DNA from: Bacillota bacterium
GTDB taxonomy: Bacteria > Bacillota > Sulfobacillia > JABLXB01
Assembly: GCA_013178305.1 (NCBI GenBank)
Contig: JABLXB010000001.1
Location: forward strand, 688,253 to 752,252
DNA: 64,000 nucleotides
Direction: 5' to 3'
The notes below the pieces were generated by a model. The model did not search any database. It was given only the letters and a program-made list of their open reading frames with translations, and was not told the DNA's origin. Shown piece by piece: positions 6,075 through 38,738 of the stretch. The position numbers and the translations under genes are program-made. The first letter of the stretch is position 1; each line of letters starts with the position of its first letter.

Positions 6075-6140
6075 GGAAACTCTACAGAAATACATAAGGC
6101 GCCTCTCCTTTCTACCGAAGGCACAGGCATCCTGCACACG

Positions 6141-6310
6141 GGCAGGTTTCCTGACTCATGGGTCACTGCCTTCCCCGGCCTTCCCGGGCGACACGGCCCG
6201 GTGGCGTCTCCTTGGGTTGGCTACCCATTTACAGTGGCGGGACCGTCCAGGATTTGCACCTGGTTCCCTTTTGACCCCCTGTTGGGGGCACCCACGTGCA
6301 TCTGCTCTTG
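6141..6310 (-). ncRNA. Cobalamin riboswitch upstream of nrdDG
   Basis: Reading the minus strand, the aptamer shows the conserved blocks in order: AAAAGGGAACC, GGTGCAAATCC, GGTCCCGCCACTGTAAA, GGGAAGGC, and the B12 box AGTCAGGAAACCTGCC ending at 6141. These are diagnostic of the AdoCbl/B12 riboswitch family. A promoter lies just upstream and a possible terminator downstream. The only leftward genes behind it are nrdD and nrdG, so high cobalamin should switch off class III ribonucleotide reductase. Confidence 0.92.
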
Positions 6311-16818: not shown

Positions 16819-18999
16819 TTATTGTCTCGCCAGCGCCGCAGCCAGCGAATATGCGCACTCCGCGCGCGTAGCGGCTGTCGAAGCGTTGAACCCCAGGTAC
16901 AGGAAGCCCATCTCAGCGCCAGCCGCCACGTACGGCTCGTACCAGGGCCGGCCCGGCCCGGCCGGCGCCGGTTCCACACCGGCGAGCCTGCATGCCACGG
17001 TAACGACCTGGGCGCCGGTCACCGCGTCACCGGGCGCGAACACCCCAGGCGATATCCCTTTCACGAGGTTGAGCCTGTGCGCGAGTGACACGGCCGCAAA
17101 CGCCCAGTGGGAACGCGGGACATCCCTGTATTCCGGCTCCGCCCCATGAGGGGTCCCCGCCGGACCGCCACCCTCCGTGCCCGCGGCCGGCCCGTCACCG
17201 TGTGCGACCCTCGCCGCCATACTGGCGAACTCGGCGCGGGTCACGCCTTTCTGCGGCTTGAAGGTCCCATCGGGATACCCGGTCAACGCACCGGTCCTGG
17301 CAAGCCGGTTCACGTGCGCCGCCGCCCAGTGGGATGCCGGCATGTCTGAGAACCCTGCCGCCACCGGGAACGCCAGGCCCGACAGGCCCAGGACCGCCTG
17401 GGCCGTCATCCACACCGTCATGGAGTCGGACCCGTCCATGTACGGGAATGAACCGTCGCCCCGCTGGAGATGGCAGATCCATTCCGCCACAGCGCGCCGC
17501 TCCGCCGCCGGAACCCCGCCTGGACGCGATCGCGCGGCGCTGAAACCCTGCAGCACCCACGAACCCGACGCGACGTTGGGTTTGTTGCCCTCCCACACCA
17601 CGCCCCCATCTGAACCGACGGCGCTCCGCAGGTAGCCAACGGCCCTTGCGAGCGACTCGCCAGTTTCGCCGAGCGCCACCATCGCCTGGATGGCGGCCGC
17701 CGTATCATCGGGGTCGCTCGGCAATCCCAGCGCAAAACCGAATCCGCCGTCGGCGTTCTGGTTCTTCTGCAGGAAGCGGAGCGCCCCGGCGCGGTCTCGT
17801 ATTCCCCCGGGGAACGGGGCAAGCGCCAGAACCGACCAGAAGTGCGCATTGAGGAGTTCCTCCTCGCCGTCGCCTGCAAACTGCCCTGAGGCCCTCTGCC
17901 TGGCGGCCAAAGATCGCGCCAACCGGTCCAGAACTCCGGCGCCGGTATCCGCGCCCATCCCTGCATCAGACACCAAGCCGGACGGCCCTCGCATGGCGTA
18001 GCCCGCCGCCAGCAGGGCCAGTATCCGCCTCGCAATGTCGGTCGAGGCGGCGCCGGAGTTGTTGAGGAACTCATCGGAAGCAACTAGAAGCCCCGCGGGA
18101 GATCGGTCGCCCTTCCTCCACTCCGGCGCCTCCGGGTCGAGTCCCACGGCGCGGATTGCCAGTATCACCCAGGATGTCACCATCTCGCTTGATTGACCCC
18201 CGGCCACTCCGGGGAACCCGCCGTCCGCGTTCTGGGTCGAGCGGAGGTACCGTATGCCCCTTTCGATGACCCCGTCTACGGCCGTCGAGACGGCCTCCGC
18301 CCGCGCCACGTAGCGGGGCCCAGGCAGCTGAGCCACCGCCGCAATCGCGACCGCGACGGCCAGCACGACTGCCGTCAAGTAGGTCAGCCTGCGCGCGAAC
18401 CTCCGCAGGATCCTGAGCATCTGGTCACCGAAGATCAATGAGAACGCGATATTGCCGGCGGAATGCAGGGTGTCAAACCACAGCCCCGCGGCCTCGACTA
18501 CGAGCAAGGTCCGGAGTGTGAGTGGAAAAGTAAACGAAAGCCAGTGCCACACGTTCATGATCAGGCCAAACAGGAACCCCCAAACACCGGTGAATACCGC
18601 GACGTGCCACCTGCCCGAACGCGGTCCCAGGACCCCGAATAACCCGGCGCTGGCGCCTACGGCGCCCCATGCCGCCGCCTGCCACACGGTCCACGGACCC
18701 TGGCCGAGGAACACGTTTGAGGCGATAGCGGAAAGCGCGCCCACCATGAAACCGTTTGCCGGGCCAAGAACCATCCCGGCGGTCGTCACTATGAAGGTGG
18801 TGGGCTGAACGTTCGGGATTGAGGCGAAGGCGACGCGCCCCGCCGACGCGAGCGCGGCCAGGCTCGCCACCACCGCGATCATCACAGGCGAGGCCGTCGA
18901 CCGCTCGTACATCACGAAACCCACGACGAGCAGTCCCACCGTAATGAGGCCGGGTAGCATCGCCGGTTGAAGAAAACCCGCCGTATTCAAGACCTCCAT
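16819..18999 (-). CDS. ECF transporter S-component fused to alpha/alpha-toroid repeats and SLH domains
   Basis: 726 aa fusion. Residues about 1-200 form a six-helix ECF substrate-binding component (RVAFASIPNVQPTTFIV, FLGQGPWTVWQ). A basic patch (RRFARR) and a seventh helix (about 208-230) then place the rest outside the cell. Residues about 245-560 are repeats of the prenyltransferase/squalene-cyclase type (QNADGGFP, QNADGGFGFA, GDGSFPYMD). Residues about 565-726 are two good SLH domains (each with a TRAE- or TGAQ-type motif) and a degenerate third. The ATG at 18999 overlaps the ATPase gene by 13 bases. As last gene of the cobalamin-riboswitch operon, its likely ligand is a corrinoid or precursor; this is inference. 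Confidence 0.85.
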   Translation of the reverse strand: MEVLNTAGFLQPAMLPGLITVGLLVVGFVMYERSTASPVMIAVVASLAALASAGRVAFASIPNVQPTTFIVTTAGMVLGPANGFMVGALSAIASNVFLGQGPWTVWQAAAWGAVGASAGLFGVLGPRSGRWHVAVFTGVWGFLFGLIMNVWHWLSFTFPLTLRTLLVVEAAGLWFDTLHSAGNIAFSLIFGDQMLRILRRFARRLTYLTAVVLAVAVAIAAVAQLPGPRYVARAEAVSTAVDGVIERGIRYLRSTQNADGGFPGVAGGQSSEMVTSWVILAIRAVGLDPEAPEWRKGDRSPAGLLVASDEFLNNSGAASTDIARRILALLAAGYAMRGPSGLVSDAGMGADTGAGVLDRLARSLAARQRASGQFAGDGEEELLNAHFWSVLALAPFPGGIRDRAGALRFLQKNQNADGGFGFALGLPSDPDDTAAAIQAMVALGETGESLARAVGYLRSAVGSDGGVVWEGNKPNVASGSWVLQGFSAARSRPGGVPAAERRAVAEWICHLQRGDGSFPYMDGSDSMTVWMTAQAVLGLSGLAFPVAAGFSDMPASHWAAAHVNRLARTGALTGYPDGTFKPQKGVTRAEFASMAARVAHGDGPAAGTEGGGPAGTPHGAEPEYRDVPRSHWAFAAVSLAHRLNLVKGISPGVFAPGDAVTGAQVVTVACRLAGVEPAPAGPGRPWYEPYVAAGAEMGFLYLGFNASTAATRAECAYSLAAALARQ

Positions 19000-20663
19000 C
19001 CCTCCCCCAACAGGGCCAGCGCCTCGCCGTACGAGATGACGCCGTCCACCCAGTGCCTGAACAGCCTGTTCACCTGGGGCGAGTAGAACAGGGCGCCGTC
19101 GAGGACCATCCGCGGCGGGCCATCTGCCACGATCCTCCCGCCGGACATCACGATCACGCGCGAGGCGCACTCCGCCGCCATGTCCACGTCGTGGGTAACC
19201 ATTACCGCCGACGCGCCCCCGGTAATCGCGTCCCTCAGAAGAGACAGCAGCGCCTGCCTCGCGCCGCGGTCCATTCCCCGCGTCGGCTCGTCGAGAAGCA
19301 AGAGTCGCGGGGACCGCGCGATCGTGGCTGCAATCGCGGCCCTCTCGCGCTCGCCCGAGCTCAGGTCCCTTGGATTGCAGTCAAGTAACCGCGTGAGTCC
19401 GAGTGTGTCCAGCACGCGCTCCACCCGCCCGCCGGGCCGGCTGCCGGGCACGTCAATACTGGCGGCGACCTCCTCGCGGACGGTGTCGGCCGTCAGGTGA
19501 TCGTTCGGGTTTTGCGACAGCCAGGCAACGCCCGAAAACCCGCGGCCGCCGTCGCCCTCAGCCACCCGGACACGGCCCTGCGACGGCTTGGTGAGGCCGG
19601 CCATCACCCTGAGCAGGGTGGACTTGCCCGCACCGTTCTCACCGAGTACCGCGACGAATTCCCCCTCGCGGACGGTCAGGTCGATGCCGGACAGGGCTGG
19701 CCTGATCCCACGCTCCCCGTCGAACAGGTGGGTCAACCCCGTGAGTTCGATGACCACCGCCGGGCGCGACGTCACAGGTGTCCCACGATCCGTACCCGCC
19801 GCGGCCTCAGCTGCCTGACCCGCGGATCCCGCCACAGGCAGCGTCCAGTTCCTCGCCAACAAGTCACGCCCTTCCCTCACCGTCAGGGGCAGTGGGCCGA
19901 CGCCCTCGCGCTCACCGAACAGCCGCGCCATGCTCGGGGAATCGACCCCCCGCTCGATCAGATTTCGTGCCGCTTCCGGCGGTTCGCCGAGGCCCATCAC
20001 CTCACCGGCATCGCACAGCCACACCGTGTCCACCGCATAAAAGCACCTGTCCAGGCGCTGCTCAGTCATAATGACGGTGGTCCCTGAATCCTTGTTAATG
20101 CGTTTGAGCAGGCCTACCAGGTCATCGGCAGCCACGGGATCGAGCTGCGACGTTGGCTCGTCGAGGAGGAGAATCCGTGGCTGCATCGCGACGACCGACG
20201 CGAGAGCCACCTTTTGCTTCTCGCCTCCCGAAAGTTCGGTGACGCGCGCGCCCCTGAGGTGTGTTATTCCGAGGTAGTTGAGCGCCTCGGCCACGCACCG
20301 CCCGATCGAATCCGTGGGCCAGCCGAGGTTCTGGAGACCGAACGCCACCTCGCGTTCGACGCTCGTCATGAATAGCTGAGACTCGGGGTCCTGGAACACC
20401 ATGCCCACGGCCTGAGCGAGGGAAAGCGGGTCGCTCCCGCTTACCGGCCGGCCGAACACCTCGACCAGCCCCGACACGCTGCCACCGTGAAACACCGGCA
20501 CGAGGCCGCGGATGGCCCTGAGCAGGGTTGACTTCCCGCTCCCCGAGCCCCCGACGATGAGCGTGAACTCACCCTCGTGGACCGCGAACGAATCCACGTC
20601 CAGCGCGGGGCGTTCGCCTCCGGGGTACGTATATCTGAAGTTTTCGATTCTCACCGCAAACAT
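18987..20663 (-). CDS. Fused double ATPase of an ECF transporter (EcfA1-EcfA2)
   Basis: 558 aa with two ABC ATPase domains in one chain. Domain 1 has GGSGSGKST, LSGGEKQKVALA and LLLDEPTSQLD. Domain 2 has GENGAGKST, LSSGERERAAIA and LLLDEPTRGMD. An Ala-rich linker near residues 275-300 joins them. ECF modules normally use two separate or fused ATPases to drive EcfT. The ATG at 20663 overlaps the EcfT gene end by 13 bases; sequence upstream lies inside ecfT and is not ABC-like. Confidence 0.92.
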   Translation of the reverse strand: MFAVRIENFRYTYPGGERPALDVDSFAVHEGEFTLIVGGSGSGKSTLLRAIRGLVPVFHGGSVSGLVEVFGRPVSGSDPLSLAQAVGMVFQDPESQLFMTSVEREVAFGLQNLGWPTDSIGRCVAEALNYLGITHLRGARVTELSGGEKQKVALASVVAMQPRILLLDEPTSQLDPVAADDLVGLLKRINKDSGTTVIMTEQRLDRCFYAVDTVWLCDAGEVMGLGEPPEAARNLIERGVDSPSMARLFGEREGVGPLPLTVREGRDLLARNWTLPVAGSAGQAAEAAAGTDRGTPVTSRPAVVIELTGLTHLFDGERGIRPALSGIDLTVREGEFVAVLGENGAGKSTLLRVMAGLTKPSQGRVRVAEGDGGRGFSGVAWLSQNPNDHLTADTVREEVAASIDVPGSRPGGRVERVLDTLGLTRLLDCNPRDLSSGERERAAIAATIARSPRLLLLDEPTRGMDRGARQALLSLLRDAITGGASAVMVTHDVDMAAECASRVIVMSGGRIVADGPPRMVLDGALFYSPQVNRLFRHWVDGVISYGEALALLGEGWRS

Positions 20664-21496
20664 CCGACCACCACCCGTGACACAGCGCACGCCGCTGGAG
20701 GAAGCGCCGCGGCCAGAACCGTTGCCGGCCCCGCACCCTTGCCGGCCACAGTGAATAGAGCAAGCGCCACCACCGACGCCGCACACACCGCAAGGTCGTT
20801 CAACCCCGGCCGGGGCGAGGGGTATCTTGACCTCGGCCCCGCCCCCCATCCCCGCGCGAACATCGCCTCCGCAAGATTGACCGAGAGCTCCAGAGACTCA
20901 TACACAGCTGCCTTCAATACAGGAGCGGCCGCCTTCAGTCGCCTTACCACCCCGTCGCCCGGCCGGATGGCCCCCCTGCCGGCCTGGGCATCGCGGACCG
21001 CCGTAACCCTGCGTGCGATGTAGGGGGCGAGGCGTAGCGTCAACGCTACTGCCAGCGACGACTTCGACAGGGGACTGGACAAGAGGAAAAGCAGTTCGTC
21101 CTCATCCGCCATCATCCAGAGCAGCGAGAAGGCACCGACTGCGGCGAGAAGGCGAAGGGCCATCGCGACCCCGTAGGTCACGGCCTCCGCCATAATCGTC
21201 AGGGTGAAGAACGGAAGCCTCCACACCACCATCTCCGAATAACCGGGGCCCAGCAGCGCGTTGATGACGAATACCGTAAGCACCACCGGAAGGACTGTGT
21301 GAAGGCTGTGAGCCCACCGGCCCAGCGACCGTGGGCCGTCGCCTGACACAAATGCCACGGCTGCTTCGGAAAACAGGATCAACCCTGAAGGCAGCGCGCC
21401 GGACACTGTGAACGCCGCCACCGCGTACGCGACGCCGAGAAACAGGGCCGCGGCTGTGTGAACCCGTATGTAATTCCATGTAACGGCGCGCTTCAT
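20651..21496 (-). CDS. ecfT: ECF transporter transmembrane coupling protein EcfT (CbiQ family)
   Basis: 281 aa membrane protein with several helices and the two short Ala-Arg-Gly-type coupling motifs of EcfT (DAQAGRG and AMFARGWG) that contact the ATPases. It lies between the DUF4430 lipoprotein gene (3-base gap) and the double ATPase. In group I ECF systems the T, A and S genes are linked, as here. Confidence 0.88.
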   Translation of the reverse strand: MKRAVTWNYIRVHTAAALFLGVAYAVAAFTVSGALPSGLILFSEAAVAFVSGDGPRSLGRWAHSLHTVLPVVLTVFVINALLGPGYSEMVVWRLPFFTLTIMAEAVTYGVAMALRLLAAVGAFSLLWMMADEDELLFLLSSPLSKSSLAVALTLRLAPYIARRVTAVRDAQAGRGAIRPGDGVVRRLKAAAPVLKAAVYESLELSVNLAEAMFARGWGAGPRSRYPSPRPGLNDLAVCAASVVALALFTVAGKGAGPATVLAAALPPAACAVSRVVVGCLR

Positions 21497-21499
21497 CCC

Positions 21500-22594
21500 T
21501 CAGTTCCTCCCCCGTCCGGCCCCGAGTGGAAGGCGTTCGACGTTCGTGGGGGTCACGGCAACCGCGAACGCATACCTGAGTGGCGAATCGCTGCGCAGGC
21601 CCCCCGCGAGCGCCTCCGCGGCCCTGTTGAGGCCTTGCTCATCCCAGCCGGCTACGATCCACAGCGGGTTTCCGTCACCCATGTACGACGCCGTCGCCAC
21701 GATCAATCCCGACCCCTCAGCCCACCTGGCGACTTCCTTCCCCGCAGCGTCCAGGCCCACGAGCCCCCCGTCGTGGCCGGGCGCGCGGATAGTCCCCGGC
21801 ATCCCCGCACGCCACGCATTGCGGAAGAGCCCCGCGACCCATTCGGACTCGAGCAGTTTACCGGCGACCCCGACGAGCATGGTGGGGGTCGACCTTTCCG
21901 CAAGTGGACCGCCGTCATACTCGGAGACGGTGGTAGCGAGATCAGTCGCCCGTCCCGGCGAAGGACCACCCGCGTCTTTGAGAGCCGAGGCTATCGTCTG
22001 CGCGGCCTTGGCTCCCCCCGCGGTGTGCAGGATCGTGCTTTTCCCGGTGAACGGCCTGGGCCACGCGCCTACCACTGCCAGGAACTGCCCGCCACCGTAC
22101 GACCACGCGTGATAATCCCACCACACAACCCCACCGGCGGGAGCCGACGTCTCCAGCGCTCCCCTGCCGGCGAGTACTCCATCAACGTAATAGAACCAGT
22201 CTCCCCCACCTGCCGCGCGCCCCCGGGTAGAGGCCAGCCCGTCCAGCGATCTCACGAAGCCCCCGCCGTAGGCGGTTTCAACCCGGCAGTGCCGCTTGAG
22301 CACTTCCATCACGGATTCCCCGTCGCTGAACGGCGCGGTAACGCGCTTGATTACGAAACTCCCGAAGTCCCGCGTTACCCACAATTCGCACTCTGCTTCG
22401 TCGGCCGGGGCGCGGGGTTGTTGGCTCGCGCCGGCGGACGCCGGGTTGTTGGCCTCCGCCACCGGGGATGGCGGCCCAGCCGGGGCCTGCCGTCGGGGGG
22501 TCCCGCAGGCCACCGGCATTGTCGCCATCACGGACAGCACCGTGATTATGATGTAGCGGCGGAGAACAGATCGCCGCGTGGAGATGTCCTTCAT
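21500..22594 (-). CDS. DUF4430 (transcobalamin C-terminal-like) lipoprotein
   Basis: 364 aa. A basic N-terminus and hydrophobic segment end in MPVACG, a plausible but imperfect lipobox, followed by a Pro/Ala-rich spacer. A DUF4430-like domain spans about residues 70-170 (GESVMEVLKRHC, GGGFVRSLDGLAS, DWFYYVDGVLAGRGA, GVVWWDYHAW). The remaining 190 residues are not recognised; they include GGAKAAQTIASAL and LWIVAGWDEQGLNRAAEAL. It lies between the surface SLH protein and EcfT, so it may pass ligand to the transporter. Confidence 0.75.
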   Translation of the reverse strand: MKDISTRRSVLRRYIIITVLSVMATMPVACGTPRRQAPAGPPSPVAEANNPASAGASQQPRAPADEAECELWVTRDFGSFVIKRVTAPFSDGESVMEVLKRHCRVETAYGGGFVRSLDGLASTRGRAAGGGDWFYYVDGVLAGRGALETSAPAGGVVWWDYHAWSYGGGQFLAVVGAWPRPFTGKSTILHTAGGAKAAQTIASALKDAGGPSPGRATDLATTVSEYDGGPLAERSTPTMLVGVAGKLLESEWVAGLFRNAWRAGMPGTIRAPGHDGGLVGLDAAGKEVARWAEGSGLIVATASYMGDGNPLWIVAGWDEQGLNRAAEALAGGLRSDSPLRYAFAVAVTPTNVERLPLGAGRGRN

Positions 22595-22595
22595 T

Positions 22596-25500
22596 TCAGC
22601 GTCTCCCGGGCACGAGAAGCAGCCTCGCCAGCATCACGGCGGCCTCAGCCCTGCTGGTGATAGCGCCAGGCACGAATGACCCGTCCGGCACACCCCTTAT
22701 TATCCCGAGGCCTGCCACAGTGGAAACGGCTTCCCTCGCCCATCCGGCCACCTGGTCGGAATCGCGGAACGCGACAGGCGCGCCCGGACCCGGTGCGGCT
22801 CCTCCCCCGCCGCTCGCCCCATCACCCGCCGTCAGGCATCTGGCCAGGAGCACGGCCACCTCCTGGCGGCTGACAGGGTCATCCGGCCTGAACAACCCAT
22901 CGGGCCCGCCCGTGACCAGGCCTTCGGCGGCCGCAGCGGACAGGTAGGCCGAGTGCCATTCGTTGCCTGACACGTCGACGAACGGCGCCGCCTTACCGCT
23001 CAGCGGCTCGAGTCCCATCGAAAGTACCAGCATCTTGACGAACTCGGCCCTCGTAACCACGCGCCCCGGCTCGAACGAACCCGGACCGACGCCGTTGACG
23101 CACCCGGAGGTCGCGAGCATTTCAACCGACTCCCTGGCCCAACCGTAGCGATCGGCCGTCACGTCGTCGAAGTGCACGACCGGAGCGGTCCGCGCGAACA
23201 CCGCGAACGCGCCGAGTTCCGCCGAATTCGTCGTCACCTGGCTGTTGAGCGGGTCGTACACGGAGGGAAGCGGTATCCAGCGACGCGTCGTCGCGTCGTA
23301 CCGGGCCATTACCAGGTCTTCTGGCTTCGTCCCATCGGGCGGGACAACCCTGATAGTAACCTCGATGGGCAGCGCCGGAGACGCCGGGCCGCCCTCCACC
23401 GTGTAGACAGGGCTGACCGGGGTGTGGCTCCGCGGTAATGTGAACCCCCCGCCCGCAGCCCCTCCTTCGACAACTGTGATCTTCTGCACCGCGGCCAGGG
23501 CGCCGGCGGGCACGTTCACAATGACTTCACCCGTGCTGTCGCCTATGATAGCCCCCGACGATGGGTCGACGTCACGGGACTCATCCACGATGTTCCGTTC
23601 CAGGGCGGCCTTCCAGTAGCCGGCTTCCGCGGACGACATCGTCTCGGCCCCTTCGCCGGGCCGAGCGATGAGGCAGCCAGTCGCCGTCTCCAGGTACAGT
23701 CCGGCGGACGGTGCTCCGCCCTGTCCTGTCCCGCGGAGCGCGCCAAGAGCCGCGTTCCTTGCCTCCTCGCGCTGCTTGATCTGTTCCGCTGAAAGCTCGG
23801 GCTTCGGCGGCACCGGCGGGAGCGCCTCTCCAGTGGTCGAGTCGCGGAAACCGCCGGTGTCAAGGTAGTTCTTCGCCCAGAACCACACAACCCCATCGCC
23901 GTCACGAAGCGTGTAGTCATCGCACGCAACCGCTGGAACAACGCCGTTGACGGCATACTTCCAACCCGAAGCGCCCGACTCCGTCACGCCGTCGATACCG
24001 GCAACGTAATTCCCATACCTGACGTTCACGCTGGCCCCGGTGGCGAGCAGGGCTGAGAGTGGTGTGGCGTCGGAGGAGTCCAGGGTCACCGTACTCTGCG
24101 GCCTGATCGCCCGGCCCCTTACCTCGACGCTCACGCGCAGGGTCGACGGCTGGTTGCCACCCGGTCCTCCCGGTCCACCAGGGCCGCCCGGGTCGCCCGA
24201 TCCCGCCACGGAGAAGCCCGCGCCTGAGAACGCACTGACCGCTCCGACGAAGTCAGCGGTTCCCTTGACGCTCTTCACCTGGCCCGTCAGCCGGCCGCTT
24301 GAATTCTGACACACGACCAGGTAAGACAGCATATTCTTGCCGCTCGAGCGGACCCAGGACCCGGAAAGGGGATTGATGCCGGCTTCGCAGAGCGCCTTTA
24401 CGACCTCGGCCGTGGAGTATACGTTGGAGTCCGCTGGGCTGCTCCAGCTGTCATCGAAGATGCCGCCGTCGTCCGCCTGCTTGGTCGCCATGAACTCAAC
24501 GGCGCCGGTGATGACCTGCGAGCTTGCCGGCTCACCAAGAGCGAGCAGGGCTCGCACAGCCTGTGCCGTCATATCGGGGCTGGGCGCGAAGGTGCTACCG
24601 CTCGCGAAGCTCCAGCCCGCGCCGGACTTGGCCGAAATCAGCCACTGTTTGGCCAGCGCGGCATCGGATATGGTTGTGTTGGCCTTCTTGAGCGCGAGCA
24701 CCGCCCACACGTGGGAGTTGACCCACGTGGCCTCACCAACCAGGCCGAAATGGCCGTCCGGTGTCTGGCGCGATTTGAGTTCCGCGACAAGGTTTCTTCC
24801 CGCTATGTTCGAGGGGTCCGCACCGCACGCCAGCACCTCGAGAATGGTCCGTGCGTAGTCGGTGGTACTCGATATGTAACCGGGGTCAGCAAGCCTGCCG
24901 GTCAGGTATTGAAGGTGTGTGTGGCCGTCCTTGACGATGCCGGCCAGGCTCTCACCGGAAGCCGCCAGCTCTATCGCAGGCCAGCTCCCCAGGTTGCCGT
25001 CGTCTTGCTGCAAGCCGATCAGGTACGACCTGGCGAGAGCCACCTTCTCGGCCAGCAACGTGTCCGACAACGCGACGTTGGGCAGGACAGATATGCTCCT
25101 GGTTGCCGGAGCGCTTCTCGTACCATCCGCTAGCCTCGCGAACACGCTGAGCGTGTAACTCCCACCCGGGATGGATGGAATCGCGAGGGTATACTGGCCG
25201 GAGGCGCCCTGGGCGGTGGCCTCTCCAACGACAGTGCCCCAGTCGAGGACCCTGCCCACAACCTCGGCGCCGGCGTAGACTGAACCAGTAACCGTGAGCG
25301 TACGGGTGGAGCTGTTGTAGGATGTAGTACCAATGGTAGGGGAATCGAGTCCCAGCAGGTAGTCGTCACCGTTCTCCACCCACAGCCTCAGCGGCTCCGG
25401 CCGCGCGATCAATGGGGCCCCCGAGGGATTACTGCCGCGGTCGGTCTTCTCGGCGGTTACGGTACACTCTCCCTCGGTGTAGGACCCCAGGTCCAGCACG

Positions 25501-26117
25501 GCCACACCGTCCCTGCCGGTGGTGTCCGAGTCGATGGTTTCCGATTGTGTTCGGAGGCGAACGGTCGCCCCTTCCACAACACCCCCTGTACTGAGGTCGA
25601 CGAGTCTCACCTTGACTCTACCCGACTCCTGCGAGTCCTCTCGCCTGAGCCCGGTCACAGGCGTGGGCCAGGCGACGCCGTAGTAGAACACAACATTGTC
25701 GCCTTCGGCGACCACGTAGTCGGCGGCCCCTCTCCTCGCCGCCTCGGGGTCGACGGCCCCATTCCGTATGACGGTGTACATCCAGCCGTCCCATCCGCCG
25801 AAAGCCCCCTCAACGTCGCCTTCCACCGCCGACAGGTACTTTCCCCAGCCCAGGTCACGCACCTCGCACGTCTTGCCAGCGTCGTACACCGCCTTGACTA
25901 CGGCGTCCAGAGCGTCATGGTCGCCAGGCTCGTCCGGGAGCTCCACCGTGCTGTTGGCATGGGTATTCGAGATCCCCTCAACCCTGACTTTGACGCGGAT
26001 ATTCGCGGCTGCGGCTGCGCTTGGAGTCGCCGCAAGGGGCGCGACCGCACTCAGCAACACTGCGCCGACCAGAACACGAAGCACGAACGCTCGCGCAATT
26101 CTCCTGAACCAGACCAT
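22596..26117 (-). CDS. SLH-anchored surface protein with two DUF4430 domains and an alpha/alpha-toroid (intrinsic-factor-like)
   Basis: 1173 aa exported protein. Signal peptide 1-38. DUF4430 domain 1 about 41-148 (GKYLSAVEG, GWMYTVIRNG, EGDNVVFYYG). Two beta-sandwich regions about 165-225 and 255-345. Toroid repeats about 355-635 (LQQDDGNLGSW, RQTPDGHFG, KQADDGGIFD). Gly/Pro linker 640-656. DUF4430 domain 2 about 659-750 (GNYVAGIDGV, GWKYAVNGV, DGDGVVWFWA). A ZU5-like beta region about 860-985, then three SLH domains to the C-terminus. DUF4430 is the transcobalamin-like C-terminal domain family, and toroid plus DUF4430 is the make-up of intrinsic factor. It heads the operon behind a cobalamin riboswitch. 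The start has GAGGAGG 11 bases upstream. Corrinoid binding is inferred, not shown. Confidence 0.85.
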   Translation of the reverse strand: MVWFRRIARAFVLRVLVGAVLLSAVAPLAATPSAAAAANIRVKVRVEGISNTHANSTVELPDEPGDHDALDAVVKAVYDAGKTCEVRDLGWGKYLSAVEGDVEGAFGGWDGWMYTVIRNGAVDPEAARRGAADYVVAEGDNVVFYYGVAWPTPVTGLRREDSQESGRVKVRLVDLSTGGVVEGATVRLRTQSETIDSDTTGRDGVAVLDLGSYTEGECTVTAEKTDRGSNPSGAPLIARPEPLRLWVENGDDYLLGLDSPTIGTTSYNSSTRTLTVTGSVYAGAEVVGRVLDWGTVVGEATAQGASGQYTLAIPSIPGGSYTLSVFARLADGTRSAPATRSISVLPNVALSDTLLAEKVALARSYLIGLQQDDGNLGSWPAIELAASGESLAGIVKDGHTHLQYLTGRLADPGYISSTTDYARTILEVLACGADPSNIAGRNLVAELKSRQTPDGHFGLVGEATWVNSHVWAVLALKKANTTISDAALAKQWLISAKSGAGWSFASGSTFAPSPDMTAQAVRALLALGEPASSQVITGAVEFMATKQADDGGIFDDSWSSPADSNVYSTAEVVKALCEAGINPLSGSWVRSSGKNMLSYLVVCQNSSGRLTGQVKSVKGTADFVGAVSAFSGAGFSVAGSGDPGGPGGPGGPGGNQPSTLRVSVEVRGRAIRPQSTVTLDSSDATPLSALLATGASVNVRYGNYVAGIDGVTESGASGWKYAVNGVVPAVACDDYTLRDGDGVVWFWAKNYLDTGGFRDSTTGEALPPVPPKPELSAEQIKQREEARNAALGALRGTGQGGAPSAGLYLETATGCLIARPGEGAETMSSAEAGYWKAALERNIVDESRDVDPSSGAIIGDSTGEVIVNVPAGALAAVQKITVVEGGAAGGGFTLPRSHTPVSPVYTVEGGPASPALPIEVTIRVVPPDGTKPEDLVMARYDATTRRWIPLPSVYDPLNSQVTTNSAELGAFAVFARTAPVVHFDDVTADRYGWARESVEMLATSGCVNGVGPGSFEPGRVVTRAEFVKMLVLSMGLEPLSGKAAPFVDVSGNEWHSAYLSAAAAEGLVTGGPDGLFRPDDPVSRQEVAVLLARCLTAGDGASGGGGAAPGPGAPVAFRDSDQVAGWAREAVSTVAGLGIIRGVPDGSFVPGAITSRAEAAVMLARLLLVPGRR

Positions 26118-26184
26118 TCCAGCCCGACCTCCTCATAAGTACTGTTCCAGGCGCCGCGTCACCGGCGCCGGCCGGGAATAGCAT

Positions 26185-26215
26185 CACGCCCCCCATCCAC
26201 CGGACGGGGGGCGTG
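26185..26215 (-). terminator. Strong GC hairpin between riboswitch and surface-protein gene
   Basis: Perfect 10-bp stem CACGCCCCCC/GGGGGGCGTG with an 11-base loop. It lies between the B12 box and the start codon, where an expression platform is expected. It lacks a U-tract, so it could act as a structural switch rather than a classic terminator. Confidence 0.45.
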
Positions 26216-26273
26216 TCTCTCAAATACAAAACACCTCCTTCATCCGCGTGAAGTAGACAGTGCAATTTCGCAG

Positions 26274-26445
26274 GCAGGTCTCCTGGCTCGCGGCTCGAAC
26301 GTCCCCGGTTGACCTTCCCAGCTATTACGCCAGTGGCTCATGCCCAAAGGCATCAACCTGAGACTCGCCGCTTACAGTGGCGGGACCGCGCCGGATTCTC
26401 ACCGGCTTCCCTTTTCAGCCCATCGCGGGCGCCAGCGAAGCGTAC
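26274..26445 (-). ncRNA. Cobalamin riboswitch upstream of the surface-protein/ECF operon
   Basis: Minus strand shows TGAAAAGGGAAGCC, GGTGAGAATCC, GGTCCCGCCACTGTAAG, GAGTC, GGGAAGGTC and the B12 box GAGCCAGGAGACCTGCC ending at 26274. All are canonical blocks. The downstream leftward operon encodes the DUF4430, toroid and ECF proteins, which is the main evidence that they handle corrinoids. Confidence 0.95.
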
Positions 26446-26514
26446 GTATTCAATTGTCCCCTTACAGTCGCCAGCCGCTGCTCCACCAAACGGGACTGCA
26501 GCAGCGTTGGCTAC

Positions 26515-26543
26515 ATTCTATCAGATGGTCCGCCTTCTGGAAA
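26515..26543 (-). promoter_or_regulatory. Sigma-A-like promoter of the surface-protein/ECF operon
   Basis: Minus strand -35 TTTCCA (26543-26538), 17-base spacer, -10 TAGAAT (26520-26515). It lies after the cobQ stop, so this operon has its own promoter. Confidence 0.55.
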
Positions 26544-26604: not shown

Positions 26605-28308
26605 TCAGCCCTCACGGTGCTCGAATACTATGCGGTAGATCCTTTCAACGTCGACGTGCTGCCTGAACAGCGAGGCAAGGCGATCGTACTGCTCGTTCCT
26701 GAAACCGGAATAGTCCCCGCGTGACGTCACGAGCGGCTCGAGGCCCTTTGCGCCGCGAAGCGAGTCGAGCATCCTGCGCACGAACTCCCCCGACTCGAAT
26801 ATCCCGTGCAGATACGTGCCCGCCACGCGGCCGTCGTCGCTTATCCACCCGTCGAGAGCCGCATCCCCACGCCCGCCCCCGTTCGCGCTGCCCGCCGCTA
26901 AATCCGCCGGCTCCCGTCGCCCATCGCCCCCGAGCTCCTCGGTTATGCGGCAGAAATGCCGGCCTCCGGCGAGCGCCTCGCCACAATCCCGCCCGCCGGA
27001 CTCCGTGGGATACTCCGTCGTCCCCATGTGAATCTCGTAGCCGCCGACATCCACTCCGGCGCATCCCGCCAGGAAAGCGGAATCGTTCGGCAGCACCCGC
27101 GCGCGGACGCGGGCAGTCCGCTTCTCAGTCCCGATCTCAGTGACCAGCGGGAGAAGGCCCAATCCCTGAGTGGCCCGGGTGTGTCCCTCCATACCGTGCG
27201 GGTCCCCGACCCCTCGCCCGAGCATCTGGAACCCCCCGCAGATCCCGAACACCACGCCGCCCTCTTCGTAGTAACGCCGGATCCGCGCCTCCATCCCCGT
27301 CTGCCGCAGGTAAAGCAGGTCGCCGATCGTATTCTTCGACCCGGGGATTATGAGAAGATCGGGGCGCCCGAACGCGGCCGGCGAGTCGATGTACTCGAGC
27401 GACACATCGGGTTCCCTTTGAAGCGGGGTGAAGTCCGTGAAATTCGACATGTGCGGGACGAGAACGACTCCCACGCGCAGCTCGCGCCCCGGCTCTTTCC
27501 TCGCGAACGCCTCGGTGACGCTGTCCTCATCATCTATTCGCAGGTCCGTGTACGGTATGACGCCGAGAACCGGGACCCCGGTCAGGTTCTCGAGCTTCTC
27601 GAGTCCCGGCCTGAGGATCTCGAAATCCCCGCGGAACTTGTTGATAATCACGCCCTTGATCCGCGCGCGGTCGGTCTCATCGAGGAGCATCATCGTCCCC
27701 ACGATAGAGGCGAACACCCCACCCTTGTCGATGTCGCCCACCAGGAGCACGGGGGCGCGCGCAATCCGCGCCATGCCCATGTTCACGAAGTCGAGGTGGT
27801 TCAGGTTGATCTCAGCGGGGCTTCCCGCCCCTTCTATGACCACGATGCCGGCGGCCGCCCGGACCTCCACATACGTTTCCTCGACCATCCGGTACAGGTG
27901 GGGCTTGAGGTCGTAGTACTCCCTTGCGGTGAAGTTGCCGAACACGCGACCCTTGACGATCACCTGTGAACTCGCGTCGGCGTGAGGCTTGATCAGGATG
28001 GGGTTCATGTTGACGTGTGGCTCCAGCCCGCACGCCTCAGCCTGTGCCACCTGCGCCCTGCCCATCTCGCCGCCCTCTCGAGTGACGTACGAGTTCAGGG
28101 CCATGTTCTGGGACTTGAACGGGTAAACGCGGTGGCCGTCCTGTTTGAACACGCGGCAGAGCGCGGTGCATATCACCGATTTCCCTACGGAGGATCCGGT
28201 CCCCTGGACCATTATCGCTCTCGCGCCCGCCCAATCCCCTGCCGGCGAGCCACCCGCGCGGTCGCCCCGGGGTGCAGCCGGTCCACACGTCACCGCCGCG
28301 CCTCTCAC
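26605..28308 (-). CDS. cobQ: Adenosylcobyric acid synthase CobQ/CbiP
   Basis: 567 aa glutamine-dependent enzyme amidating adenosylcobyrinic a,c-diamide at four side chains. The N-terminal ATP-binding domain has IMVQGTGSSVGKSV and FKSQNMALNSYVT. The C-terminal triad glutaminase has its nucleophile in GICGGFQMLG and a histidine in GTYLHGIF. It is longer than the usual 490-510 aa because of an extended N-terminus and a Gly/Ala-rich insert near residues 440-485. The GTG at 28308 overlaps the transketolase stop as GTGA. It is not behind its own riboswitch here. Confidence 0.95.
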   Translation of the reverse strand: MRGAAVTCGPAAPRGDRAGGSPAGDWAGARAIMVQGTGSSVGKSVICTALCRVFKQDGHRVYPFKSQNMALNSYVTREGGEMGRAQVAQAEACGLEPHVNMNPILIKPHADASSQVIVKGRVFGNFTAREYYDLKPHLYRMVEETYVEVRAAAGIVVIEGAGSPAEINLNHLDFVNMGMARIARAPVLLVGDIDKGGVFASIVGTMMLLDETDRARIKGVIINKFRGDFEILRPGLEKLENLTGVPVLGVIPYTDLRIDDEDSVTEAFARKEPGRELRVGVVLVPHMSNFTDFTPLQREPDVSLEYIDSPAAFGRPDLLIIPGSKNTIGDLLYLRQTGMEARIRRYYEEGGVVFGICGGFQMLGRGVGDPHGMEGHTRATQGLGLLPLVTEIGTEKRTARVRARVLPNDSAFLAGCAGVDVGGYEIHMGTTEYPTESGGRDCGEALAGGRHFCRITEELGGDGRREPADLAAGSANGGGRGDAALDGWISDDGRVAGTYLHGIFESGEFVRRMLDSLRGAKGLEPLVTSRGDYSGFRNEQYDRLASLFRQHVDVERIYRIVFEHREG

Positions 28309-34573: not shown

Positions 34574-35751
34574 GAGTACTGCACGTCTCCAGCGACTACA
34601 CCCTGGGCGGGGCGAGCAGGTACCTGCTCACGTTGTTCAAGCAGCCCGCCTTCTCGAGCATCGATGCCACGGTCGCTTGCCCCGAAGGCGGCCCGTTGTG
34701 GGACGAACTCCGGGGGCTCGGCGTGAAAGTAGACGGGTTCCCCCAGAGGGACAGGTCACTCGACCCGGCTCTCACGTTCCGCCTCCTCGGCCTCATCAGG
34801 AAGAACCGGTTCGACATCGTCCACACTCACGCCAGCCTGTCGGCGAGGGTCGCCTCCAGGCTGGCCCGCGGACCGAACATCGTCGTGACCCGCCATACCT
34901 TGCTGCCGCCCGCAATTCCGCCGCGGTCGCCGCTCGGCCACGTGAGAAGGGCGGTAAAATGCGCAATCGTGGGCACGACCCAGGCGCTCCTGGCTGACCG
35001 GTTCATCGCCGTGTCGGAGGCGGTCCGGCATGCCCTACTCGCTGAAGGTATCCCCGAAGACATGATAGAAACGATACATAACGGGGTCGACGTGGCTGAG
35101 CTCGAGCGCGAGGCAGGACGCGGTGGCGGGCTATCCACCATCGCCGGCATGGCGGGTCCAGCGTGGGCGCCGGGTTCACCCGTCGTGGGCACGGTGGGAC
35201 GGCTCTCGCACGAGAAAGGCCACGAGATCTTCGTTCGCGCCGCGCCGCACGTCCTTTCCGCGGTCCCGTCCGCCCTGTTCGTAATCGTCGGGCACGGCGG
35301 TGAGCGGGAGAGACTCGAGGTCTTGGCCCGCGGGCTCGGCGTCGCCGGGCGCTTTGTCTTCGCCGGATACCAGGATAACGCCACCAGCTGGATGAGCGCG
35401 TTCGACGTGTTCGTGATGCCCTCGCTCGGCGAGGGACTCGGGATCGCGTTGCTCGAAGCGATGGCCCTGCGCAAACCCGTCGTGGCGTCGAACACGGGAG
35501 GCATACCGGAGGTGGTGCAGGACGGCGCGAACGGCCTCCTCGTGTCACCCGGCGACCCGCTCCACCTCGCGGTGGCCGTCACCAGGCTCCTGAGAGACGG
35601 GCCCCTCGCCACGCGAATCGCCGCCGCGGGGCGCGAGAGCGTGTTGGAGAGGTTCAGCGCCGCGGCGATGGCGGAGAGGACGGCCGCCGTCTATACGCGG
35701 CTATCTGGCATGCGAGGCGCGGCCCCACGCCGCGCCCCACAAGGCAGGTGA
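34570..35751 (+). CDS. Glycosyltransferase family 4
   Basis: 393 aa GT-B enzyme (MRVLHVSSDYTLGGASRYLL; TIHNGVDVAELE; VGRLSHEKGHEIFVRAA; MPSLGEGLGIALLEAMALRKPVVASNTGGIPEVV split over the donor site). Typical of enzymes extending wall or exopolysaccharide chains. The ATG at 34570 overlaps the Wzy-like gene, and its end overlaps csaB. Confidence 0.9.
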   Translation: MRVLHVSSDYTLGGASRYLLTLFKQPAFSSIDATVACPEGGPLWDELRGLGVKVDGFPQRDRSLDPALTFRLLGLIRKNRFDIVHTHASLSARVASRLARGPNIVVTRHTLLPPAIPPRSPLGHVRRAVKCAIVGTTQALLADRFIAVSEAVRHALLAEGIPEDMIETIHNGVDVAELEREAGRGGGLSTIAGMAGPAWAPGSPVVGTVGRLSHEKGHEIFVRAAPHVLSAVPSALFVIVGHGGERERLEVLARGLGVAGRFVFAGYQDNATSWMSAFDVFVMPSLGEGLGIALLEAMALRKPVVASNTGGIPEVVQDGANGLLVSPGDPLHLAVAVTRLLRDGPLATRIAAAGRESVLERFSAAAMAERTAAVYTRLSGMRGAAPRRAPQGR

Positions 35752-36857
35752 ACGATTTGCCGAGGCTGGCGATAGCCGGCTATTACGGTTTCGGCAACAC
35801 CGGAGATGAAGCCATCCTTGAATCGACGATACTCGCGCTAAGGTCCCAGATCCCGGGGGCTGAATTCTCGGTGCTGACGAATGACCCCGAGGGTACGCGC
35901 GCGGCGCACGGTGTGAACGTGGTCCCGCGCCTCTCGCCTCTTGCGGTCGCGCGCGCCCTGCGCGAGTCCGACCTCCTCGTGTTCGGGGGCGGCAGCCTCC
36001 TGCAGGACGCCACCAGCCTCAGGTCACTCCTGTATTACCTGTCCGTCCTGCTGTCCGCGCAGGCGCTCGGGAAACCCACCATGGTGTACGCCAACGGTAT
36101 CGGCCCTGTGAACTCCAGGGCCGGCAGGATGGCAACTCGACTGGTCCTCAACCGCGTTTCGGCGATGACACTCAGGGACGACGACTCGGCGCGACAGGTC
36201 CGCATGCTGGGTATCACCCGCCCCAGGGTCAAGGTCACCGCCGACCCGGCGTTCGCGTTGCAGCCCGCCGGCGCCTCGGCTGCACGGTCGATACTCGAGA
36301 CCGAAGGAATCACACCCGGGACGTGCCGGCTTGTAGGAGTATCGCTGAGACCCTGGAAATCCTCACCCCACCTCCCGGAGGTCATGGCGGCCGCGTGCGA
36401 CGCGATCCATGAATCGCTGGGCGCAACCGTCGTACTCATACCGATGCAGCACACCCACGACGCTCCACTCGCGGGATCGGTGCAGGCCCTCGCGCGGCGT
36501 CCTGTTGCAGTGCTGAGGCGCAGGTGCACGCCGCGGGAGCTCATGGCATGCGTGGGGCTTATGGATGCCGTCGTGGGGATGAGACTCCACTCGCTGATAT
36601 TCGCGGTGGCCATGGCCGTGCCGGCTGCGGGGATCTCGTACGACCCGAAAGTCGAAGCGTTCCTTAACGCGGTGGGCTGTCCCAGCCTGGGGGGGCCAAA
36701 CGAGGTTACGGCCGCATCGATGTGCGAGTTGGTAAAATACCTGCTAGATAACTCGGCAGCCATAAAGTACAGGCTGTCCGCAAGCCGCCAGCAACTCCGC
36801 GAGCTCGCACTGGAAAACGCGCGGATAGCACGCTCGCTGCTCCACAAAATCGGATAG
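35748..36857 (+). CDS. csaB: Polysaccharide pyruvyl transferase CsaB
   Basis: 369 aa enzyme that adds ketal pyruvate to the secondary cell wall polymer, the ligand of SLH domains. Motifs include GYYGFGNTGDEAILES, VFGGGSLLQDATS, YANGIGP and GMRLHSLIFA. Two SLH-bearing proteins are encoded 10-20 kb away, so the cell very probably uses SLH-pyruvyl anchoring. Starts at 35748 overlapping the preceding gene by four bases. Last gene of the cluster. Confidence 0.93.
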   Translation: MNDLPRLAIAGYYGFGNTGDEAILESTILALRSQIPGAEFSVLTNDPEGTRAAHGVNVVPRLSPLAVARALRESDLLVFGGGSLLQDATSLRSLLYYLSVLLSAQALGKPTMVYANGIGPVNSRAGRMATRLVLNRVSAMTLRDDDSARQVRMLGITRPRVKVTADPAFALQPAGASAARSILETEGITPGTCRLVGVSLRPWKSSPHLPEVMAAACDAIHESLGATVVLIPMQHTHDAPLAGSVQALARRPVAVLRRRCTPRELMACVGLMDAVVGMRLHSLIFAVAMAVPAAGISYDPKVEAFLNAVGCPSLGGPNEVTAASMCELVKYLLDNSAAIKYRLSASRQQLRELALENARIARSLLHKIG

Positions 36858-36929: not shown

Positions 36930-37526
36930 TCACTCTACGTCGCCCCTCCCCCGTCCCTCTTCATCAAACATGCTCAGGAAATAGCGGTGGAGCCGCAGGT
37001 CGTCGGTAAGCTCAGGGTGGAACGCCGACGCCAGGAACCGGCCCTCCCGGACAAGCACAATCCTCCCATTGTACCTGCATAGGACCTCGCAGGCGGGCCC
37101 GGCTTCAGGCACGTATGGGGCCCGTATGAAAACCCCGGGGAAAGGTTCTTCTCCCATGACAGGTATACTGAGAGGCGATTCGAAACTCTCCCTCTGTCTT
37201 CCGAAAGCATTGCGACAAACGGACATGTCCATGAGCCCCAGCCGCGGCTGAGAGCTACCCTGGATTTCTCGGGCCAGCAGGACGAGGCCGGCGCATGTCC
37301 CATATATGCTCATCCCGAGAGCCGCGCGTTCCCGGATGGCATCCATTAACCCGTAATCGACCATCAGTTTCCCAATGGTAGTACTCTCGCCGCCCGGTAT
37401 AACGAGCCCACGGAGGCCATCGAGATCATCGGCTCTTTTGACGGTACGCACGCTGCAGCCGCACGCCCGAAGGGCGGAGACATGTTCCCTTACCGCCCCT
37501 TGTAGATCCAGTACACCGATACCCAT
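36930..37526 (-). CDS. pdxT: PdxT, glutaminase subunit of pyridoxal 5'-phosphate synthase
   Basis: 198 aa class I glutaminase supplying ammonia to PdxS. Motifs GVLDLQGAVREH, PGGESTTIGKL, the nucleophile Cys in GTCAGLVLLA and the His/Glu pair in FHPELT are intact. ATG at 37526 with AGGGGG eight bases upstream. It follows pdxS with a 12-base gap. Confidence 0.97.
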   Translation of the reverse strand: MGIGVLDLQGAVREHVSALRACGCSVRTVKRADDLDGLRGLVIPGGESTTIGKLMVDYGLMDAIRERAALGMSIYGTCAGLVLLAREIQGSSQPRLGLMDMSVCRNAFGRQRESFESPLSIPVMGEEPFPGVFIRAPYVPEAGPACEVLCRYNGRIVLVREGRFLASAFHPELTDDLRLHRYFLSMFDEEGRGRGDVE

Positions 37527-37538
37527 GATTTCAGCCCC

Positions 37539-38420
37539 CTATATTCCCCGTTCCTGCATCCTATCTTCCTTACGGACGGCTGACATGTCGAGCCCAGGCA
37601 TGGGGTCTCCGAGACTCCTGGAGGCCTCGGCCAGCACTTCCGGCGACCTGAAGTGGGTGGTAGCTCTTACTATGGCCCTGGCTCTGGCTGCAGGGTTCCC
37701 TGACTTGAAGATACCGGAACCCACGAATATGCCGTCGCAGCCTAGCTGCATCATGAGAGAAGCGTCCGCGGGCGTGGCTATCCCCCCGGCTGCGAAGTTT
37801 ACAACGGGTAACCTGCCGAGGCGTTTGACGTCGAGGAGTAGATTATATGGGGCTCCCATCTCCTTGGCCAGGCTCATAAGTTCCTCGTCCGGCGTGGAGC
37901 AGACTTTGCGTATTTCGGCGTTTACGAGCCGCATATGGCGGACGGCTTCAACTACATTGCCCGTCCCGGGCTCACCCTTGGTTCTGATCATGGCCGCACC
38001 CTCACCTATCCGGCGCAGAGCCTCCCCCAGGTTCCTCGCCCCACAGACAAAGGGCACACGGAAGGCATGCTTATCGATGTGGAATGTCTCGTCAGCAGGG
38101 GTAAGTACCTCACTTTCATCGATGTAGTCGACGCCGAGCGCCTCAAGTATCTGGGCTTCGGCAAAGTGCCCGATTCTCACCTTGGCCATCACAGGAATAG
38201 TCACTGAGTCCATGATCTTCAGGATGGTCTCAGGGTCCGCCATCCTGGCTACGCCTCCGGCTGCACGGATGTCCGCGGGCACCCTCTCCAGCGCCATGAC
38301 CGCTACGGCCCCCGCGTCCTCAGCGATCCTGGCCTGCTCAGGTAGCGTTACGTCCATAATGACTCCGCCTTTGAGCATCTCCGCGAGTCCCTTTTTCACT
38401 GTCCAGGTACCCGTTTCCAC
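37539..38420 (-). CDS. pdxS: PdxS, pyridoxal 5'-phosphate synthase lyase subunit
   Basis: 293 aa TIM-barrel enzyme making PLP from ribose 5-phosphate, glyceraldehyde 3-phosphate and ammonia. Catalytic lysines lie in GGVIMDV...-type and [18 protein letters not shown] segments. The GTG at 38420 is preferred over an ATG at 38447: GGGAGGGAG lies about nine bases upstream of the GTG, and B. subtilis PdxS has 294 residues. An intrinsic terminator and an FMN riboswitch lie immediately upstream. Confidence 0.96.
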
Positions 38421-38451
38421 AGATACTCCCTCCCAATGAAATGCCATTTTG

Positions 38452-38481: not shown

Positions 38482-38589
38482 CAGACACTTCCTGGGAGAA
38501 ACCTCTCAAGGCGAAGTCATAAGCCTTCGAATTCCACACAATGGCCTATAATTGTGCCATCGCAGAAACAGGCTTTTGCCTTGGCCTTG

Positions 38590-38730
38590 CCTTCTCCCAT
38601 TCAGACTGTACTGTCGGCTCCGGATTCTCACCGGCTCAATCGCTGAGGCTGACGGGCTCGTCTTCCAATGGAAGCATCACCGCCGGTCAGGATTTGAAGG
38701 TTACCCCCTCTCACCCTGCCCCGAAGGCTA
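38590..38730 (-). ncRNA. FMN riboswitch (RFN element) upstream of pdxST
   Basis: Minus strand shows the RFN blocks in order: GGGGCAGGGTGAGA, CCTGACCGGCGGTGAT, GACGAGCCCG, GAGCCGGTGAGAATCCGG, AGCCGACAGTACAGTCTG and ATGGGAGAAGG ending near 38590. The next gene in that direction is pdxS; no riboflavin gene intervenes. It is followed by an intrinsic terminator and preceded by a good promoter. Confidence 0.93.
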
Positions 38731-38738
38731 CCAACTAC

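Follow-up and report, generated by a model that had tools for sequence, protein, structure and literature searches.

The S-component CbrT of energy-coupling factor (ECF) transporters, a prediction of Rodionov et al. (2009), was proven in 2018; it binds and transports cobalamin and cobinamide, without competition from haemin (PMC5997447). Bacterial proteins that fuse an alpha/alpha toroid to an SLBB domain were described by Burroughs, Balaji, Iyer, and Aravind (2007). These fusions, often with a second SLBB protein, were found in operons of CbiO-like and CbiQ-like genes, in hosts that usually lack B12 synthesis, and B12 scavenging and a transfer to animals were proposed (PMC1796856). The same text mentions no riboswitch, CbrT, S-layer, or SLH domain. 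Here, we describe an operon that joins these features. It lies in a stretch of 64,000 nucleotides from a Bacillota bacterium of the class Sulfobacillia (assembly GCA_013178305.1, contig JABLXB010000001.1, positions 688,253 to 752,252). This whole stretch is called the window, and coordinates are those of the window unless stated otherwise. We predict that the operon encodes a riboswitch-controlled importer of the ECF-CbrT type serving corrinoid salvage and equipped with transcobalamin-like surface capture, a reading to which we assign a probability of about 0.86.

Confidence is high for corrinoid import and moderate for the transcobalamin-like capture. Import had already been suggested by a first, sequence-only reading of this DNA, and it is supported by the homology to CbrT, the carrier-like predicted folds, and the riboswitch linkage presented below. 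Cobamide acquisition is less known in Firmicutes (PMC8941943). Little is understood of how Gram-positive bacteria capture B12 outside the membrane, and where intrinsic factor and transcobalamin came from has yet to be settled. Among the titles and abstracts covered by our literature search, which left subscription journals and preprints largely outside, none reported a bacterial function for DUF4430.

Organization of the Operon

On the minus strand, between positions 16819 and 26117, five almost gap-free genes lie downstream of a cobalamin riboswitch, as determined with Pfam, NCBIfam, and Rfam. The features of the operon are as follows:

26256–26451 (−): cobalamin riboswitch aptamer (Rfam RF00174, 115.3 bits, E 3.5e-28; gathering score 31.5 bits)
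22596–26117 (−): secreted surface protein of 1173 aa, in the order DUF4430, Ig-like domain, alpha/alpha toroid, DUF4430, three SLH repeats (Pfam, structure model)
25647–26024 (−): first DUF4430 of the surface protein, a transcobalamin-type beta-grasp domain (Pfam, iterated hidden Markov model)
24198–25085 (−): alpha/alpha toroid of the surface protein (residues 1–295 of the AlphaFold2 [AF2] model)
23841–24164 (−): second DUF4430 of the surface protein (Pfam; within the two-domain match to transcobalamin)
22629–23180 (−): three SLH repeats, an anchor to the S-layer or secondary cell wall polymer (Pfam; Sap SLH domain in the PDB, E 7.6e-14)
21500–22594 (−): DUF4430 lipoprotein of 364 aa, with a transcobalamin-like beta domain and an alpha/beta domain like BcsB and the N-terminal part of GH115 (Pfam DUF4430, E 1.9e-9; AF2 model)
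20651–21496 (−): EcfT, the transmembrane coupling subunit, of the CbiQ family (Pfam CbiQ, E 7.9e-9)
18987–20849 (−): fused EcfA-EcfA' ATPases (two Pfam ABC_tran domains, E 5e-57)
16819–18999 (−): CbrT-like S-component fused to a toroid and SLH repeats, 726 aa, in the open reading frame (ORF) 16819–19170 (Pfam, PDB searches)
18364–18960 (−): CbrT-like part of this protein (phmmer and profile matches to 6fnp_A)
18331–18387 (−): hydrophobic segment joining S-component and toroid (residues 205–223, 19 residues, hydropathy 2.46)
17410–18324 (−): toroid fused to the S-component (Pfam SQHop/Prenyltrans)

In the surface protein, Pfam recognized the two DUF4430 domains (PF14478, E 2.4e-18), the three SLH repeats (E 2.2e-34), and a toroid of the squalene-cyclase type. 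The fused ATPases match the NCBIfam model ECF_ATPase_1 (TIGR04520) with 326 bits for a cut-off of 315, and the ORF 16819–19170 gave two SLH repeats (E 2.3e-25), the toroid, and a weak match to an ECF S-component. Its gene likely starts at the ATG at position 18999, as the GTG at 19170 would give an overlap of about 180 nt with the ATPase gene, and the latter likely starts at the ATG at 20663. The lipoprotein has an imperfect lipobox (MPVAC); in many orthologues this motif is good. The sequence-only reading had described a riboswitch followed by five tightly packed genes with these domains, and Rfam and Pfam placed every one of them there.

A CbrT-Like S-Component in a Host Predicted to Salvage Corrinoids

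The homology of the S-component to CbrT fixes the class of substrate independently of the riboswitch. In sequence searches of the PDB, the gene product used as a single query matched chain A of 6fnp, CbrT from Lactobacillus delbrueckii, with E values of 5e-13 to 3e-13 (3.2e-13 with phmmer). A profile built from 23 relatives (A1) retrieved the same chain at E 1.7e-20, and the next S-component followed at E 0.1. The alignment shows the common motifs IPNVQP, SN.FLG.G.WT..Q, and FD..H..GN. The earlier assignment of this protein as an S-component is therefore borne out and can be refined to CbrT-like. Uptake of another tetrapyrrole or vitamin, for instance haem, folate, or riboflavin, is the least probable of the alternatives that we considered. 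Weak matches to riboflavin (E 1e-3) and folate (E 5e-3) S-components were obtained with Pfam and NCBIfam, and a haem ECF system is known in Staphylococcus lugdunensis (PMC7299338), but the match to CbrT is far stronger, cobalamin riboswitches are linked to these genes across the family, and haemin was not accepted by CbrT (PMC5997447).

CbiC and CbiD are absent from the host assembly, which is 97.7% complete, and both families were found in control genomes. On the basis of its gene content, the host appears unable to make the corrin ring. It does have CobS, CbiB, CobD, CobQ, and 11 B12-binding domains over cut-off, and together with the missing CbiC and CbiD this makes it likely that the host salvages corrinoids of the cobinamide type. 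The cobQ gene (cobyric acid synthase) at 26605–28308 (−), retained without CbiC and CbiD, may act in repairing or remodelling corrinoids after import.

In many genomes, cobalt transporters also stand behind cobalamin riboswitches, and the EcfT of the operon falls in the CbiQ family; both facts would suit the uptake of cobalt by a CbiMNQO-like system instead of the uptake of corrinoids. However, none of the five proteins gave a match to CbiM/NikM or CbiN in Pfam or NCBIfam, and their extracellular domains resemble B12 carriers. Free cobalt, moreover, would not yield B12 in a host without CbiC and CbiD. With no CbiM and a CbrT-like S-component, cobalt transport was rejected as very unlikely.

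Linkage across Genomes

Scanning GTDB genomes with the S-component profile yielded 577 relatives, from which 80 named loci were kept. They belong to Thermosediminibacter, Moorella, Pelotomaculum, Desulfotomaculum, Caloramator, Clostridium, Actinomycetota, and a few archaeal metagenome-assembled genomes. Judged from these matches, the operon recurs in several hundred genomes. The commonest order among the 80 loci is riboswitch, toroid-DUF4430-SLH protein, DUF4430 lipoprotein, EcfT, fused EcfA pair, and CbrT, and a toroid-SLH gene adjoins CbrT in many of them. In Clostridium and Caloramator, the order is riboswitch, EcfT, EcfAA, CbrT, DUF4430-toroid, and DUF4430. Where enough upstream DNA was available, DUF4430 and EcfT were each found in 57/57 loci and toroids in 55/57, the two loci without toroids being L072 and L128. 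Toroid and DUF4430 form one chain in most loci.

A cobalamin riboswitch lies upstream on the same strand in 39 of the 49 loci with a visible operon start. This count was obtained with a covariance model whose 19 input riboswitches were taken from these loci and the window, whereas the other scans used Rfam's own model. The dedicated model was needed because a strict regular expression found riboswitches in only 24/80 loci. The linkage was also evaluated in a CbrT-independent sample of 81 Bacillota genomes, scanned with Rfam's own model. DUF4430 occurs in 27 of these genomes, forming 32 loci, and at 25 of the 32 a cobalamin riboswitch lies on the same strand no more than 10 kb upstream, against 0.7% expected. 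The tie between DUF4430 and cobalamin riboswitches that had been proposed from a single locus thus extends to the family. DUF4430 was present in 26/26 of the genomes with a CbrT match and in 1/55 of those without (Fisher p 2e-20, a value that, like any from this sample, is too small because the sampled genomes are related).

The distribution of CbrT is patchy: a match is missing from the 15 sampled genomes of the same class and from one of two sister genera, and is present in distant Clostridia. The operon may come from horizontal transfer or have undergone frequent loss.

Predicted Folds of the Extracellular Proteins

A ligand-free AF2 model of the surface-protein toroid and second DUF4430, computed from 26 input sequences, reached a mean pLDDT of 86.6. 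Among PDB structures, the 15 that Foldseek ranked highest all come from transcobalamin, haptocorrin, or intrinsic factor, with E values of 5e-11 to 9e-8, and the 15 alignments run through both domains (435–461 alignment columns). The model of the lipoprotein (pLDDT 84.6) consists of a beta-grasp domain at residues 64–165 followed by an alpha/beta domain that resembles BcsB and the N-terminal part of GH115 enzymes. With Foldseek, the beta domain matched the transcobalamin beta domain 5no0 best (E 1.3e-4), and both apo and B12-bound forms were among the matches. VIA gave Z scores of 13–14.4 to the carriers for residues 64–165, the best being haptocorrin (Z 14.4, 1.7 A over 95 residues). Counterparts of both halves of transcobalamin, which the sequence-only reading had anticipated in these two proteins, were therefore recovered by Foldseek and VIA. 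Sequence profiles of the toroid-DUF4430 chain, the lipoprotein, and DUF4430 alone gave no significant match to transcobalamin; the case for the carrier fold thus rests on structure. The toroids also weakly match the SCO2321 family, for which a literature search returned nothing relevant.

Several observations weigh against an importer with transcobalamin-like capture, in addition to the relatedness of the sampled genomes. Ten of the 49 loci with a visible operon start show no riboswitch. The DUF4430 profile reaches Transcobalamin-1 (4kki) across the whole domain, but at E 0.81. In the ligand-free model, the toroid and beta domain are placed differently from those of transcobalamin, with a root-mean-square deviation of about 12 A over both domains. 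Lastly, the best sequence and VIA matches of the toroid are squalene-hopene cyclases. As to the placement, each half matches the carriers and their mutual position does not; a shallow, ligand-free model of this kind would speak neither for nor against a clamp.

A possible though doubtful alternative retains the corrinoid importer and dispenses with the transcobalamin-like clamp: the beta domains alone would bind, and the toroids would be scaffolds or spacers of the S-layer. Such a division of labor would agree with the absence of the transcobalamin domain arrangement from the model, with a lipoprotein that has a beta domain and no toroid, and with DUF4430 being the most constant extracellular part (57/57), toroids being dispensed with in L072 and L128. 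An isolated transcobalamin beta domain, moreover, has a B12-bound structure (5np4). It accounts less well for the fact that toroid and DUF4430 form a single chain in most loci, as in the animal carriers, and that toroids are kept in 55/57.

The toroids could also be extracellular enzymes similar to terpene cyclases and unrelated to B12 binding. For the toroid alone, the nearest single-domain structure in VIA is squalene-hopene cyclase (Z 25.5), ahead of intrinsic factor (Z 20.3); toroid enzymes take up the VIA matches of this model, which makes the absence of other families among them uninformative. The toroids linked to CbrT, at 17410–18324 (−) in the window and in relatives, carry the motif D-P-D-D-T-A or D-V-D-S-T-G, recalling the DXDD of class II terpene cyclases; the fused toroid of the window has D-P-D-D-T-A. 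By contrast, the surface-protein toroid of the window has SPDMTA in place of D-P-D-D-T-A, and the fourth position of the motif is D, S, or T among relatives. The fusion to DUF4430, the SLH anchoring, the riboswitch linkage, and the two-domain match to B12 carriers likewise argue against an enzyme, which we consider highly improbable. Corrinoid capture by a transcobalamin-like surface protein remains our preferred reading of these folds.

Fusion of the S-Component to a Toroid and SLH Repeats

Most relatives, among them L081, L093, L112, and L130, keep the toroid-SLH gene next to CbrT as a gene of its own, and in the window the two form one frame. A second genus of the family has the same fusion at 58% identity (L149), and match coordinates together with open frames indicate further ones in G067, G170, and G118, for a total of five genomes in three families. 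The hydrophobic segment that joins the two parts is preceded by RRFARR and followed by ARA and then E. It is possibly a seventh transmembrane helix, which would place the toroid outside, or else a signal peptide left over from the separate gene, which may still be cleaved.

A wider conjecture, which we regard with more doubt than belief, is that the S-component carries its own S-layer-anchored corrinoid receptor, as a tethered or a cleaved polyprotein, and that the bacterial toroid and beta domain form a working clamp from whose lineage the animal carriers arose. On the toroid proteins of some relatives (L110:5530-7218 and L074:11522-14785), SLH is replaced by Cu_amine_oxidN1 domains, which suggests another wall anchor.

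Wall Anchoring, Leader, and Other Riboswitches

SLH domains attach to a wall polymer that CsaB modifies. Besides the SLH repeats, the genome encodes this enzyme, in support of SLH anchoring:

35748–36857 (+): CsaB pyruvyl transferase (TIGR03609, 284 bits, cut-off 213)

Two further features lie ahead of the first gene:

26515–26543 (−): sigma-70-like promoter match ahead of the riboswitch (9/12 consensus positions, 0.2 matches expected; by itself no evidence of function)
26183–26217, approximate (−): strong GC-rich hairpin between aptamer and first gene (14-bp stem in the minimum free energy structure)

The leader has a z-score of −3.1. The hairpin has no U-tract and is possibly the expression platform.

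The strongest cobalamin riboswitch of the window, at 6124–6310 (−) with 127.8 bits, lies ahead of nrdD-nrdG at 3099–5980 (−), which encode the B12-independent class III ribonucleotide reductase. A third and weaker one (41.9 bits), in the segment 13384–16712 (+), precedes cbiB, a GHMP kinase gene, and cobD; these genes form a cobinamide-to-cobalamin segment in which the kinase may be PduX. The fourth of the genome, at L148:7659-7853 (−) (G000:C2:417658-417852), is upstream of a gene for a NikA-like substrate-binding protein, perhaps part of a cobalt/nickel uptake system. A flavin mononucleotide (FMN) riboswitch at 38585–38732 (−), with 80.7 bits, is directly upstream of pdxS-pdxT (pyridoxal phosphate synthase, 36930–38447 (−)) and not of riboflavin genes. 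One more genome of this class shares the order (L181; pdxS 82% identical), and a chance match is therefore unlikely.

Proposed Mechanism

The direction of control known for this riboswitch family suggests that the operon would be switched on at low intracellular cobalamin. The SLH repeats would fix the toroid and beta-grasp domains in the cell envelope, where these domains would bind cobalamin or cobinamide and raise their local concentration, possibly by sandwiching B12 between toroid and beta domain. The lipoprotein, with its single beta domain, may then relay the corrinoid from the surface protein to CbrT, and the fused EcfA pair and EcfT would drive CbrT to release it inside. The SLH anchoring and the ATP-driven import by CbrT-EcfT-EcfAA are those expected from the protein families. 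The toroid fused to the S-component might tether a receptor over the transporter or, if cut at an internal signal peptide, give a second surface protein. For incomplete corrinoids, CobQ, CbiB, CobD, the PduX-like kinase, and CobS, which are encoded nearby or elsewhere in the genome, would supply the remaining steps.

Comparison with Known Systems

ECF-CbrT of L. delbrueckii (6fnp; PMC5997447) and the system of the window have in common a homologous S-component, EcfT, and two EcfA domains. In L. delbrueckii, cbrT is part of nrdJ-cbrS-cbrT-pduO and shares a general ECF module (PMC5997447), whereas the window encodes a dedicated module in one riboswitch-led operon. There, the EcfA pair is fused, the S-component is fused to a toroid and SLH repeats, and extracellular DUF4430 proteins are added.

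The animal carriers transcobalamin, haptocorrin, and intrinsic factor (2bb5, 4kki, and 2pmv) likewise have a toroid followed by a beta-grasp domain (SLBB/DUF4430) in one secreted chain. The surface protein differs from them by an SLH anchor in place of endocytosis, by an additional N-terminal DUF4430 and Ig-like domain, and by its ECF partner; the similarity is structural, between predicted models and the carriers, and in sequence it is not significant by profile. Like the proposed surface protein, BtuG and BtuH of Bacteroides (PMC6143338, PMC8941943) capture B12 at the surface ahead of a transporter. They belong to other protein families and act at a Gram-negative outer membrane with the TonB-dependent BtuB, and are analogous only.

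The closest precedent is the class of Burroughs et al. (2007), of which the window holds a member: a toroid+SLBB protein, a second SLBB protein, an ATPase, and a CbiQ-like protein in a host without B12 synthesis genes. The sequence-only reading knew of no characterised Gram-positive system of this make-up. Gram-positive B12 scavenging by toroid-SLBB, CbiO, and CbiQ proteins was predicted in 2007 (PMC1796856), a prediction that was never tested. The idea of B12 scavenging is therefore not new; what is new is the assignment to CbrT, the counted riboswitch linkage, the anatomy of the lipoprotein, and the S-component-toroid-SLH fusion. Surface proteins of the transcobalamin fold, a cobalamin riboswitch, and an S-component of a proven B12 family meet in one operon, which makes the 2007 proposal easily testable, and cultured hosts exist in Moorella, Thermosediminibacter, and Caloramator. 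Relative to the class described in 2007, the window adds an identified S-component, a linkage to riboswitches that has been counted, and the fusion of that S-component to a toroid and SLH repeats.

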